From: Desulfomonile tiedjei
GTDB lineage: Bacteria > Desulfobacterota > Desulfomonilia > Desulfomonilales > Desulfomonilaceae
Direction: 5' to 3'
NCBI GenBank assembly: GCA_016218715.1
Contig: JACRDG010000099.1
Coordinates: 21,880-85,879 of the forward strand
DNA length: 64,000 nt
Part shown: positions 2,899 to 7,624 of the stretch, piece after piece
Layout: each line of letters opens with the position of its first letter
Numbering within the stretch: the first letter of the stretch is position 1
Notes under the pieces: generated by a model
What the model was told of the DNA's origin: nothing
The model's input: the letters and a program-made list of their open reading frames with translations, nothing else
Databases searched by the model: none
Translations under genes and position numbers: made by a program

Positions 2899-3705
2899 GT
2901 GCGAGAAATGGCTGACCCACATAGGGAACGCAAGTCTTCGCGAGACCGGCGCTACCGGGTCGTCTCTCCTTTTTTCGGGCTGTTGCCATTGGACTTTCTC
3001 GTGACCGGAGAAGAGCATCCGTGTCCGTACCTCCCCTCCCTTCAGGCCAGAGAAGAACTCTTCGCGGCCGCGGATCTCCACGCGGAGCTGTACCACGACC
3101 TCATGGACCTTGGCTTCCGCAGGGCAGGAACGATTTTCTATCGGCCCGTTTGCCGTAGCTGCGCGGAATGTCGGCCGCTCAGAGTCCCAGTCTCGGAATT
3201 CAGGCCGACCAAATCCCAGCGGCGTGTCCTCGCGAAAAACCAGGATACGGAAGTCGTTGTGAGGGCTCCCCGGTTCACGCAGGAGAAATTCAGAATCTAC
3301 TCCGACTATCTGAGGACACACCACGGTAGCGCGGAAGCGACGACACCGGAGGAGTTCCAGCGCTCGTTGTACACATCGCCGGTGGCTACGTTGGAGTTCG
3401 AGTATCGCATCCGAGGGCGCCTCGTGGCCGCGTCGATCGCGGACGTGTCGTCGAGGTCGCTCTCCAGTGTGTACGTGTATTACGACGTCGGTGTCGATTC
3501 CAGGAGCATGGGAACGTTTTCCGCAATGAGAGAGATCCTCTTCTGCGCGGAGCACGGCATTCCTTTCTACTATCTCGGGTTCCACGTGGCCGACTGTCCG
3601 GCCATGAGCTATAAAGCACGCTTCAGACCCAATGAAATCCTCTCGCCGGATCTCAACTGGATTCGGCAGTCGCTCCCCGCTCGCCCTCCGGCAGTCTCCG
3701 CTTGA
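2899..3705 (+). CDS. bpt: Bacterial aminoacyl-tRNA-protein transferase (leucyl/arginyl type, Bpt/Ate1 family)
   Basis: 268 residues. The family transfers Leu from tRNA to proteins with N-terminal Asp or Glu, creating a bacterial N-degron that ClpS-ClpAP recognises. Typical elements are present: HPCPYLPSLQ near the N-terminus, the cysteine-rich RPVCRSCAECRPLRVPV, and the C-terminal GNAT-like YYLGFHVADCPAMSYKARF block. Compared with family members it carries a short extra N-terminus (MREMADPHRERKSSRDRR), so a start slightly downstream is possible. The next gene, a ClpX-like unfoldase, starts 129 bases downstream on the same strand, which suggests that tagging and unfolding may be linked here. 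Confidence 0.88.
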   Translation: MREMADPHRERKSSRDRRYRVVSPFFGLLPLDFLVTGEEHPCPYLPSLQAREELFAAADLHAELYHDLMDLGFRRAGTIFYRPVCRSCAECRPLRVPVSEFRPTKSQRRVLAKNQDTEVVVRAPRFTQEKFRIYSDYLRTHHGSAEATTPEEFQRSLYTSPVATLEFEYRIRGRLVAASIADVSSRSLSSVYVYYDVGVDSRSMGTFSAMREILFCAEHGIPFYYLGFHVADCPAMSYKARFRPNEILSPDLNWIRQSLPARPPAVSA

Positions 3706-3834: not shown

Positions 3835-5628
3835 ATGCAAGAAGATGATACCACCAAGGCCACCAATCTCCCGGATCCCAAAGAGATCGAGAGAGAGATA
3901 AACGAGTTCCTGGCCAACAAGTACGGAAACAGGATCAGGGTCATGGGAACCCAGATCGGCCCGTGGCCCGGAACCGAGGAATCAGGAACGGGTGAGACGG
4001 TTCTCGGCGACCGGACTACGTCGTCGATCCGCTTCGCTATGAAGCCTGCGGAATTGCACGAGTATCTGGACCGTTTCGTCATTCGCCAGGATTCAGCCAA
4101 GGAGATTCTCGCCACCAAGATATGTACCCATTTCAATCGCATTCGCCACTACCAGCAGAAGGGTGAGCCAGATGAGCGCGAAGGGATCGGAAGGATCAAG
4201 AGCAACATCATCCTCATCGGCCCTACCGGAGTCGGCAAGACGTATTTGATCAAACTGATCGCCAAGAAGATCGGCGTCCCCTTTGTCAAGGGAGATGCGA
4301 CGAAATTCAGTGAGACCGGATACGTGGGTGGCGATGTGGAAGATCTGGTCCGAGATCTGGTGCAAGCTGCTGACGGAGACATAGATCAAGCGAAGTACGG
4401 AATCATTTACATCGACGAAATCGATAAGATCGCGTCATCCGGAAACATCATCGGCCTCGATGTCTCCCGCACGGGAGTCCAGCGGAACCTCCTCAAACCC
4501 ATGGAGGAAACCGAGGTAGATTTGAAGGTGGCTCACGATCCGGTTTCCCTGATGGAGGCTGCTGCCCACTTCCAGAAAACCGGGAAGAGATTGAAACGAA
4601 CTATCAATACCCGTGACATACTCTTTATCGTTTCGGGTGCGTTCGACGGACTCGACGAAATCATATCCAAGAGGATTTCCCGGAAAGGGCTCGGGTTCGA
4701 GGCCGTCCTGAAACAAAAGGAATATCGCAGTGATGTGCTTCGGGAGGTGAAGTCCGAGGATCTGATCGAGTTCGGGTTCGAATCCGAATTCGTCGGCCGC
4801 CTGCCGGTCATTGCAGTACTTGATGATCTTGACGTTGACGACCTGTACAAGATCTTGAAAAACGAGTACTCTTCCGTGGTGACCGCCAAGAAACAGGACT
4901 TCAAATCGTACGGCATAGACATTCGCTTTACCAACGAGGCGCTCAGGAGGATCGCCGAACAGGCCAGCCTCGAAAAGACCGGGGCACGTGCGCTGGTGAG
5001 CTGTATGGAGCGGCTTCTCGTCAGCTTCGAGCGGGTGCTCCCATCCTCGGAAGTGAACCGATTCACCGTCACTGATGAACTGGTGGAGAACCCGAGAGGT
5101 TATCTCCAGGAAATGCTTGCAGATGAAAACCATCCGGCCCGCGGCTCGATCTTTGACGCTGTCGACACCGCCGAGAGGGTGGAGCGGTTGGCGGAACTCG
5201 ATGCACGGTGCGGCGAGTTCCGGAAGCACTACGGAGACGTCCTCTGCGGAGCCGCGCTCGAAGCCGTCGTCGATGCCGCTATCAAGGAAGGGGTCTCCTC
5301 GGAGACCATGTACCAGAAATACCTCAAGCTTCAGAACGAGGTGCACGCTTTTGAGGAAGAGTTCTTCCGCCTTTACGGCTTGAAGATCCGATTCTCAATG
5401 GACGCCCTCCACGAGTTGGTCCGGTTGGTGCTCACCGGCTCCGAAGAGGCGCTCATTGTGTGCAGAAAGATCTTTCAGAACTACCACCATGGGCTGAAAC
5501 TCGTCATGGAACGCTCGGGCGACAAGGAATTTACCATTCCGAAAGAGGCCGTCAAGAATCCCGAACGATTCCTGAACGACATGATTCAGAAGACGTACAG
5601 CCACCCTGACGCAGAAGCCGCGAGCTGA
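3835..5628 (+). CDS. ClpX-like AAA+ unfoldase without zinc-binding domain and with duplicated C-terminal lid domain
   Basis: The ORF track starts at TTG 3802; ATG 3835, preceded by gagagggaaagg, is a better start (597 residues). Residues 70-105 match the ClpX pre-AAA helix (AELHEYLDRFVIRQDSAKE). Walker A is GPTGVGKT (129-136), the pore loop GYVG (162-165), Walker B IIYIDEID (190-197), and sensor 2 KTGARA (R385). GLGF (285-288) sits where ClpX has its ClpP-docking IGF loop. The Cys4 zinc domain of ClpX is absent, replaced by about 65 unrelated residues. After the first lid (about 358-428) there is a helical linker and a second lid-like copy (about 513-584: LYGLKIRFSMDALHEL...FLNDMI), in which the sensor-2 GAR has become GSEEA. 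Likely an ATP-driven unfoldase paralogous to ClpX. Confidence 0.85.
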   Translation: MQEDDTTKATNLPDPKEIEREINEFLANKYGNRIRVMGTQIGPWPGTEESGTGETVLGDRTTSSIRFAMKPAELHEYLDRFVIRQDSAKEILATKICTHFNRIRHYQQKGEPDEREGIGRIKSNIILIGPTGVGKTYLIKLIAKKIGVPFVKGDATKFSETGYVGGDVEDLVRDLVQAADGDIDQAKYGIIYIDEIDKIASSGNIIGLDVSRTGVQRNLLKPMEETEVDLKVAHDPVSLMEAAAHFQKTGKRLKRTINTRDILFIVSGAFDGLDEIISKRISRKGLGFEAVLKQKEYRSDVLREVKSEDLIEFGFESEFVGRLPVIAVLDDLDVDDLYKILKNEYSSVVTAKKQDFKSYGIDIRFTNEALRRIAEQASLEKTGARALVSCMERLLVSFERVLPSSEVNRFTVTDELVENPRGYLQEMLADENHPARGSIFDAVDTAERVERLAELDARCGEFRKHYGDVLCGAALEAVVDAAIKEGVSSETMYQKYLKLQNEVHAFEEEFFRLYGLKIRFSMDALHELVRLVLTGSEEALIVCRKIFQNYHHGLKLVMERSGDKEFTIPKEAVKNPERFLNDMIQKTYSHPDAEAAS

Positions 5629-5978: not shown

Positions 5979-7394
5979 CTATGGCTCGCCTATGCTGCTC
6001 CTGCCTCTCCCCTGGTCCATGAGTGCTCGCGGAGACGGACCAACGTTGCCCGGAGAAGAGAAGATCTCTTTCAGCGTATTCCAGAATCCTCCGCCACTCT
6101 CTCCTTCTTGTTGCTGAGGCTGTTGGACCTGGAGCGGTGTCGACTGGCCCGGCTGGGTCTGTTGCGGAATGATGAGAGGCGGCCGCTGCTGACCCTGTTG
6201 CTGCGGGTATGCGCCTTGAGGCTGCATGTACGGCTGCTGTGCCTGACCGGCGGGCTGGGGGTACTGCTGCGGCTGGCCGGGGCCCTGGACCGGATATCCG
6301 CCACCCTGGCCGCTTTCCCGCGATACGCCCAAAAGTTCATAGTAGCGTGCCTGAGCGTCCTTGAGTCTTTCGTAGGCCTCGGCTGTGGCCTTCTGCTGGT
6401 ATTCCTTCTGAAGCTCCTGCTGCCGGGCCTCCTGTTCCATCATCTTCTGCTGGGCTCCCGTCATTGCTTGCTGGGCCTGTTGTAGCTCCTGGAGAGCGGC
6501 TTGCTGTTGCGCTGCGAGGCCTGCTGCTCTCTGCCGGGCCACTGCGCGTTCGTACGCCTTCTCTTGCGCCTGGCGTACTTCAGGATCCTGGCTGTAAGCC
6601 GGCTGGCCCTGAGCAGCCTGAGCCGCCTGGGGAGCTTGGCCGTAACCCTGCGGATAGTTCGCGTACTGACCTGCCGGATAAGCTCCAGCTTGCTGCTGTT
6701 GCGGGTAAGCCTGCGGCTGATACCCAGGTTGCTGATACCCCTGAGGGCTGGGCTGCTGGTAAGCCTGCGGCTGCTGGTAAGCTTGCGGCTGCTGGTAAGC
6801 CTGGGGCTGCTGATAAGCTTGCTGCTGCTGGTAATCCGCGGCTTTTTGCTTTGCGCTCAATCGCCGTTTCTTCTTGGGCGTGGGCTGCTGGGGCTGTTCC
6901 ATCTGTTGCGGAACTCCGCCCTGTGCATAACCGGCAGGAGCCTGGGGCTGCTGATACTGTTGCTGATACTGTTGTGGGGAAGCTTGCTGATATTGCTGTT
7001 GATAGGGCTGCTGATACGGTTGCTGATACCCCTGGGGCGCCTGTTGAGCCCCGTAATCGTACATGCTCCCGGCCTGAGTCGCCGCGGCTTCGGGAGAGGT
7101 GGCAGCGCTGGAGCCCGAGGCCGGATAATAGCTCGTGACCGGGGCTGATCCGGGGTAGTTCCCGGTTATGGAGTAGTAACCGCCTTCCCGCTGAAGATTG
7201 TCGAGGTAGTTGTGCCAATACGGATAGTACACGGGCGGCTGACTTGGATCGAAGCTACCGGAGGGGGTTTGCATGAAGGTGGAAGAGTCGCCCCCGTAAT
7301 ATCCTGGCCCGCCCGCTCCCTGGCCCAGGGCAGGCACGACCGAGAGCAGCAGGCTCAAGATAGCGCCCGTAAGGAGCATCCATTTTTTTCCCAT
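5979..7394 (-). CDS. Exported glutamine/proline/tyrosine-rich repeat protein
   Basis: The ORF opens at 7472, but the ATG at 7394 has an aaaggaga ribosome site and begins a clear Sec signal peptide (MGKKWMLLTGAILSLLLSVVPALGQ), giving 471 residues. The mature protein is low complexity: QQPYQQPYQQQYQQ runs and tandem units of the PQAYQQ type (a 15-base DNA repeat around 6750-6830), a basic stretch TPKKKRRLSAKQK, then an Ala/Gln/Glu heptad-like region (about 280-360) likely to be coiled coil, and a Gln/Pro-rich tail. No catalytic domain is visible. Length may vary between strains because of the tandem repeats. Probably an extracytoplasmic structural or adhesive protein; function unknown. Confidence 0.7.
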   Translation of the reverse strand: MGKKWMLLTGAILSLLLSVVPALGQGAGGPGYYGGDSSTFMQTPSGSFDPSQPPVYYPYWHNYLDNLQREGGYYSITGNYPGSAPVTSYYPASGSSAATSPEAAATQAGSMYDYGAQQAPQGYQQPYQQPYQQQYQQASPQQYQQQYQQPQAPAGYAQGGVPQQMEQPQQPTPKKKRRLSAKQKAADYQQQQAYQQPQAYQQPQAYQQPQAYQQPSPQGYQQPGYQPQAYPQQQQAGAYPAGQYANYPQGYGQAPQAAQAAQGQPAYSQDPEVRQAQEKAYERAVARQRAAGLAAQQQAALQELQQAQQAMTGAQQKMMEQEARQQELQKEYQQKATAEAYERLKDAQARYYELLGVSRESGQGGGYPVQGPGQPQQYPQPAGQAQQPYMQPQGAYPQQQGQQRPPLIIPQQTQPGQSTPLQVQQPQQQEGESGGGFWNTLKEIFSSPGNVGPSPRALMDQGRGRSSIGEP

Positions 7395-7624
7395 CACTAT
7401 TCTCCTTTCGGCGAATGCAGTCCGGTAGGGGTTCCGAAGCCATGCAATCCCGAGGCAATCACCTTTGAACAAACCCGCGAAATCACGCGAACCAACCAGA
7501 GTAACACAGGTATATTATACCTTCTTTGGCCAAAAAAGCAAAGCCCAAAAAGCCGGTTCCAGCCGAAATTATACAATGTCAGATACATACGAAAGGCTCA
7601 ACCGTTGGAGGCGAGCATAGCCGG

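Follow-up and report, generated by a model that had tools for sequence, protein, structure and literature searches.

A second lid domain in a widespread and apparently undescribed cousin of the ClpX unfoldase

The window analysed here, a stretch of 64,000 nucleotides from a Desulfomonile tiedjei contig, carries at positions 3835..5628 a gene whose product resembles ClpX in its core but not in its termini, which raises the question of whether this protein is a divergent ClpX or a separate kind of machine, and of what its additional C-terminal region would do. All coordinates refer to the forward strand unless indicated otherwise. The frame is open throughout from the ATG at 3835, preceded on its 5' side by the purine-rich stretch GGAGAGGGAAAGG, to the stop at 5628, and encodes a product of 597 aa (P0001), designated a two-lid ClpX-sister AAA+ unfoldase from its reading frame, model matches, orthologues and position in a tree. 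Within a sample of 40 relatives, each of the 17 further genomes from the window's family carried a full-length orthologue sharing 71-77% identity.

The only Pfam models over their cut-offs in the 597-aa protein were PF07724 (AAA_2) and a single PF10431 (ClpB_D2-small lid). Both ClpX models (NF003745 / TIGR00382) remained under their thresholds, with 321 bits against a cut-off of 359 and 297 bits against 371, as did the HslU model TIGR00390 with 168 bits against 362. The best relatives of solved structure were ClpX chains, and the AlphaFold2 (AF2) monomer model of the whole protein (pLDDT 78) was found by Foldseek to have a ClpX-like fold. Pfam and PDB matches identify a single AAA+ module of the ClpX/HslU type followed by a C-terminal small domain.

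The motifs of the motor were counted by regular expression in 84 members of the family and 69 ClpX proteins. The AAA+ large domain, delimited by Pfam and NCBIfam models and by PDB/Foldseek matches, spans residues 67-326 (4033..4812) and includes the Walker A motif GPTGVGKT (residues 129-136, 4219..4242; 83/84 members), the pore-1 loop GYVG (162-165, 4318..4329; 84/84), the Walker B motif IIYIDEIDK (190-198, 4402..4428; 84/84) and the arginine finger GR (321-322, 4795..4800; 83/84). An earlier note, made from the sequence alone, had described a ClpX-like core with GYVG and a sensor-2 arginine, and both of these are invariant across the 84 proteins. It had also placed a GLGF motif (285-288, 4687..4698) at the ClpP-docking position, where an IGF-type tripeptide is indeed present in 83 of 84 members, with G287 and F288 invariant in an alignment of 35 sequences.

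ClpX recognises substrates through its Cys4 domain and RKH loop, and contacts ClpP through the IGF loop. The Cys4 zinc-binding domain, which the earlier note took to be replaced, was found in none of the 84 family members compared with 67 of 69 ClpX proteins. Its place is occupied by a conserved N-terminal helix, PDPKEIEREINEFLANKYGNRIRVM (3868..3942), recognised in the alignment and modelled by AF2 as H15-33, which is followed by a low-confidence linker at residues ~37-66 (pLDDT is low over 30-63). The RKHP motif was likewise absent from all 84 members and present in 68 of 69 ClpX proteins. In nearly all members where the region could be measured, the 20 aa of the RKH-loop region of ClpX are replaced by a family-specific segment of ~31 aa (about residues 227-257, 4513..4605). 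As judged from these motifs, the family has retained the motor and the motif for ClpP docking, while both known ClpX recognition elements have been exchanged.

The C-terminal part begins with a regular small domain, lid 1 (residues 334-430, 4834..5124), supported by Pfam, hhalign, AF2 and motif counts, whose sensor-2 TGAR lies at 382-385; the GAR motif occurs at this site in 84/84 members. A second copy of the lid, as claimed in the earlier note, was located at residues 500-590 (lid 2, 5332..5604) by hhalign, HMM, AF2 and Foldseek. Comparison of the profile of residues 330-432 with that of 500-592 (34-35 members), a check of the kind that the note had proposed, gave a probability of 98.5% and an E-value of 2.7e-15 in register, pairing IDIRF with LKIRF and FTVTDELVENP with FTIPKEAVKNP. 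The best E-value among 100 column-shuffled control profiles was 0.013, and lid 2 is kept in members from several phyla; chance likeness of the two lids is ruled out by these controls and this conservation. An HMM of lid 2 alone recovered lid 1 in register in nearly all members, as well as the canonical ClpX lid, to which lid 2 aligned with a probability of 95.8% (E 7.4e-9). The nearest relative of lid 2 was the family's own lid 1 (E 2.8e-14), ahead of the lids of ClpX (E 7e-9) and HslU (E 3e-4, over 18 columns only), which fits the internal duplication that had been suggested.

The order of structural elements is the same in the AF2 models of lid 1 (E362-365 H367-380 H385-404 E409-412 H414-418 H420-429) and lid 2 (E517-520 H522-534 H539-546 H550-561 E565-568 H570-574 H576-589). 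A model of lid 2 alone (pLDDT 89) gave Foldseek top matches that were nearly all ClpX chains, with ~76 columns, TM ~0.55 and a probability of up to 0.96 but E > 0.2, so that the structural match is taken as supporting evidence only. Lid 2 has a conserved GLKL motif of its own (553-556), and no GAR was seen in it, in agreement with the proposed loss of the sensor-2 arginine. Having neither this arginine nor a large domain of its own, lid 2 is unfit for the usual ATP hydrolysis.

Between the two lids lies an insert of about 60 residues (434-497, 5134..5325), identified by hhalign and alignment as probably a degenerate third lid reduced to the N-terminal half. It matched the N-terminal half of lid 2 (93.9%, E 1.6e-7) and also lid 2 of the Verrucomicrobia proteins, which are without the insert (92.5%, E 4.9e-7); the best of 60 shuffled controls reached E 0.011. 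Given this match, the C-terminus here is probably of the form lid 1 - half lid - lid 2. The insert is present in the window's relatives, in Desulfobacterales-type members and on one Desantisbacteria contig. Members from Verrucomicrobiota, Latescibacterota and Spirochaetota do not have it; these proteins are mostly about 490-590 aa long, and by alignment their arrangement is probably lid 1 - lid 2.

The position of the protein relative to ClpX and HslU, a comparison also proposed in the note, was examined by maximum-likelihood phylogeny on 346 columns of the core, without lid 2, from 39 family members, 24 ClpX and 9 HslU proteins. Three separate clades were obtained, with SH-aLRT values of 92 for the family (XL), 99 for ClpX and 100 for HslU, and with the root on HslU the XL clade is sister to all sampled ClpX, the stems being of similar length (1.23 for XL, 1.5 for ClpX). 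The designation as a ClpX paralogue therefore holds as to kinship but not as to recent paralogy, the split being older.

Members of the family were detected in 187 of 395 sampled genomes of the window's phylum, belonging to 52 families, in 53 of 195 genomes of a Verrucomicrobiota sample, taken from the phylum of a Verrucomicrobiales genome, and in 36 of 198 of a Spirochaetota sample, taken likewise from that of a Spirochaetia genome, together with single contigs of Latescibacterota and Desantisbacteria; the sampled genomes of a second family in the window's own class were without it. No model in Pfam, NCBIfam, PHROGs or PADLOC names the family or covers the C-terminal module, and no description under another name was found in the literature searched, which left most subscription journals outside its scope, so that an earlier account is possible. 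The single PHROGs match, a family of unknown function (235 bits), is to the core and leaves the C-terminal part without a counterpart. An origin from phages or plasmids was rejected, as those collections match the ClpX-like core only and none covers 80% of the query; so was a defence system, for which PADLOC gave one weak match in the P-loop region (IetA, 20 bits). Four of the features tested place the protein outside ClpX, in a widespread, apparently undescribed cousin family. The earlier note had not noticed that the RKH loop is missing too, nor the half-lid insert, how broad and old the family is, or the linkage to heme genes described below.

The host genome also encodes a canonical ClpX on another contig, adjoining a trigger-factor-like ORF, clpP and a Lon-like ORF, as well as HslU, ClpB and one strong ClpP match; there was no ClpA match over the cut-off. 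As canonical clpX is kept beside clpP, and ClpP has a single strong match, the two-lid protein is to be seen as an extra machine and not as a replacement. True ClpX coexists with the family in several phyla, where checked.

Immediate neighbours in the window are an arginyl/leucyl-transferase gene of the Bpt/Ate type ~130 bp upstream (2899..3705), which 6 loci from the window's family have near the two-lid gene, and a convergent ORF (5979-7472, reverse strand). The latter encodes a long, repetitive protein rich in Q, P and Y whose N-terminus is signal-like; it has no NCBIfam match and recurs downstream of the unfoldase gene in many of that family's genomes. Besides Bpt, the host has a weak ClpS-like ORF (Pfam ClpS, 39 bits), but ClpB only and no ClpA match over the cut-off. 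A role together with Bpt in an N-degron route is suggestive but is kept as a side lead, since not all members of the window's family have Bpt next to the gene.

Elsewhere in the phylum the gene often stands first in the order unfoldase-ahbC-hemB-ahbD-ahbA, identified by curated models, in which ahbC, on the same strand as the unfoldase, opens the operon for siroheme-dependent heme synthesis (the downstream ahbC scored 764 bits on TIGR04546, cut-off 650). Among the matches listed, ahbC lies directly downstream in 59 of the 87 genomes in which both genes were located, covering 18 families; the adjacencies are not independent events, although the order is kept over many families, and the chance expectation, estimated from gene number, is about one in thousands per genome. 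Co-occurrence of the family with AhbC is moderate (127 genomes with both, 60 and 89 with one, 119 with neither; odds ratio 2.8, Fisher p 6e-7, uncorrected for kinship). The leading position in a row of heme genes in many relatives suggests a motor for few proteins. The linkage was not seen in the window's own genome, which has AhbC on a different contig, or in its family, whose heme genes are at other sites, and no shared heme or chaperone neighbour was found at the Verrucomicrobiota and Spirochaetota loci, so that a heme role cannot be the general function of the family.

Other downstream partners recur. A J-protein without zinc finger takes the place of ahbC in 10 loci, usually at a gap of a few bases, and a PpiD-like isomerase follows in two. 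In 8 loci (L155, L163, L167, L171, L179, L180, L183 and L186) the next gene encodes a small single-domain receiver, mostly preceding heme genes. All eight receivers have R, K, E or S in place of the phospho-acceptor Asp, which rules out a phospho-regulated receiver adaptor. A Lon-like protease (LonB-related, 158 bits, under the cut-off) is encoded two genes downstream in at least one locus (L148:9949-12507), and a similar-looking ORF was noted at L184:4780-7389. Directly after the unfoldase, L161 (8852-9070) and L175 encode a ~73-aa protein with no family match over cut-off, which in L161 has a CxxC...CxxC pattern and may act as a zinc module of its own. In 8 Verrucomicrobia loci, L245 among them, this position holds a ~421-aa ORF resembling a membrane protein.

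Taken together, it is on balance probable that these proteins form a separate class-2 Clp/Hsp100 family, sister to ClpX, of ClpP-competent unfoldases with re-tooled substrate selection. Such a protein would act as a ClpX-like ATP-driven ring, presumably hexameric although the models are of monomers, and would pull proteins through a pore lined by GYVG and pass them to ClpP via the [ILM]GF loops, a step predicted from a three-residue motif. In place of the Cys4 domain and RKH loop, the family has a short N-terminal helix, an extended loop and the lid-derived C-terminal module. The extra lid or lids may offer a docking site to adaptors or substrates, or else hold adjacent subunits together; docking could direct the machine to a small client set instead of ssrA-type tails. 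The view of lid 2 as an adaptor- or substrate-binding module, put forward in the earlier note, is reasonable, and a structural brace in the hexamer would be equally compatible with the sequences.

More weakly, clients in many relatives may include HemB, AhbC and AhbD, which would be remodelled or removed. Mitochondrial ClpX partially unfolds ALA synthase (ALAS) and thereby activates it (PMC7077987), which makes heme clients more plausible. That the unfoldase is dedicated to the siroheme-dependent heme pathway through lid-derived docking, in some cases aided by a degenerate receiver that serves as adaptor, is nevertheless a tentative and rather doubtful extension. The same ALAS precedent (PMC7077987) would suit a remodelling chaperone independent of ClpP, which refolds or activates clients such as heme enzymes without proteolysis and keeps the GF residues for some other reason. 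Indeed, clpP is not among the recurrent neighbours and the gene adjoins biosynthetic and chaperone genes, but conservation of [ILM]GF in 83/84 members over several phyla would be unexpected if ClpP docking had been lost, and this possibility is considered unlikely.

Less likely still is a general, additional quality-control unfoldase in which lid 2 braces the hexamer and neighbours share no more than expression timing. It would account for neighbours that vary by lineage (heme genes, J-protein, PpiD-type isomerase, Lon-like protease, Bpt) and for the Verrucomicrobiota and Spirochaetota, which have no common neighbour of such kind; against it, no member retains either of the ClpX recognition elements, which points to selective recognition, and the order with ahbC is tight in 18 families. 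That the protein is simply a diverged ClpX, with a C-terminal extension that either does not matter or is no lid, would agree with the 40-45% core identity to ClpX, but is scarcely credible, being refuted by the deep separate clade, the conservation of lid 2 across phyla and the lid homology over shuffled controls.

ClpX is commonly taken to be a single, universal family, and a sister family about as deep as ClpX itself is now set beside it. A lid duplicated for non-catalytic use, together with exchanged recognition parts, amounts to a natural experiment on substrate choice by Clp unfoldases, and the link to heme genes makes it testable whether unfoldases regulate tetrapyrrole synthesis outside mitochondria.

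Among known systems, ClpX is the best match in sequence and fold, sharing the AAA+ core, GYVG, GAR, arginine finger, IGF-type loop and first lid. The two-lid protein differs in being without the Cys4 domain and RKH loop, in its added lid 2 (joined, among the window's relatives, by the half lid), in scoring under both cut-offs and in forming its own clade beside a true ClpX in the genome. HslU shares the class-2 Clp/Hsl unfoldase core, but falls in a separate clade, and lid 2 is not HslU-like. CpdR and RssB are receiver-type adaptors of ClpXP, and the single-domain receivers (Pfam Response_reg) whose genes immediately follow that of the unfoldase in 8 loci recall them; without the phospho-acceptor Asp these are at most candidates for working alike. 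A parallel in working is mitochondrial ClpX with ALAS (PMC7077987), where a motor of ClpX type is connected with heme synthesis. The mitochondrial protein is ClpX proper, whereas in the two-lid family the connection is one of gene order with the later siroheme-route enzymes and HemB, in part of the family; if heme-dedicated, the two-lid unfoldase would independently parallel what mitochondrial ClpX does to ALA synthase.
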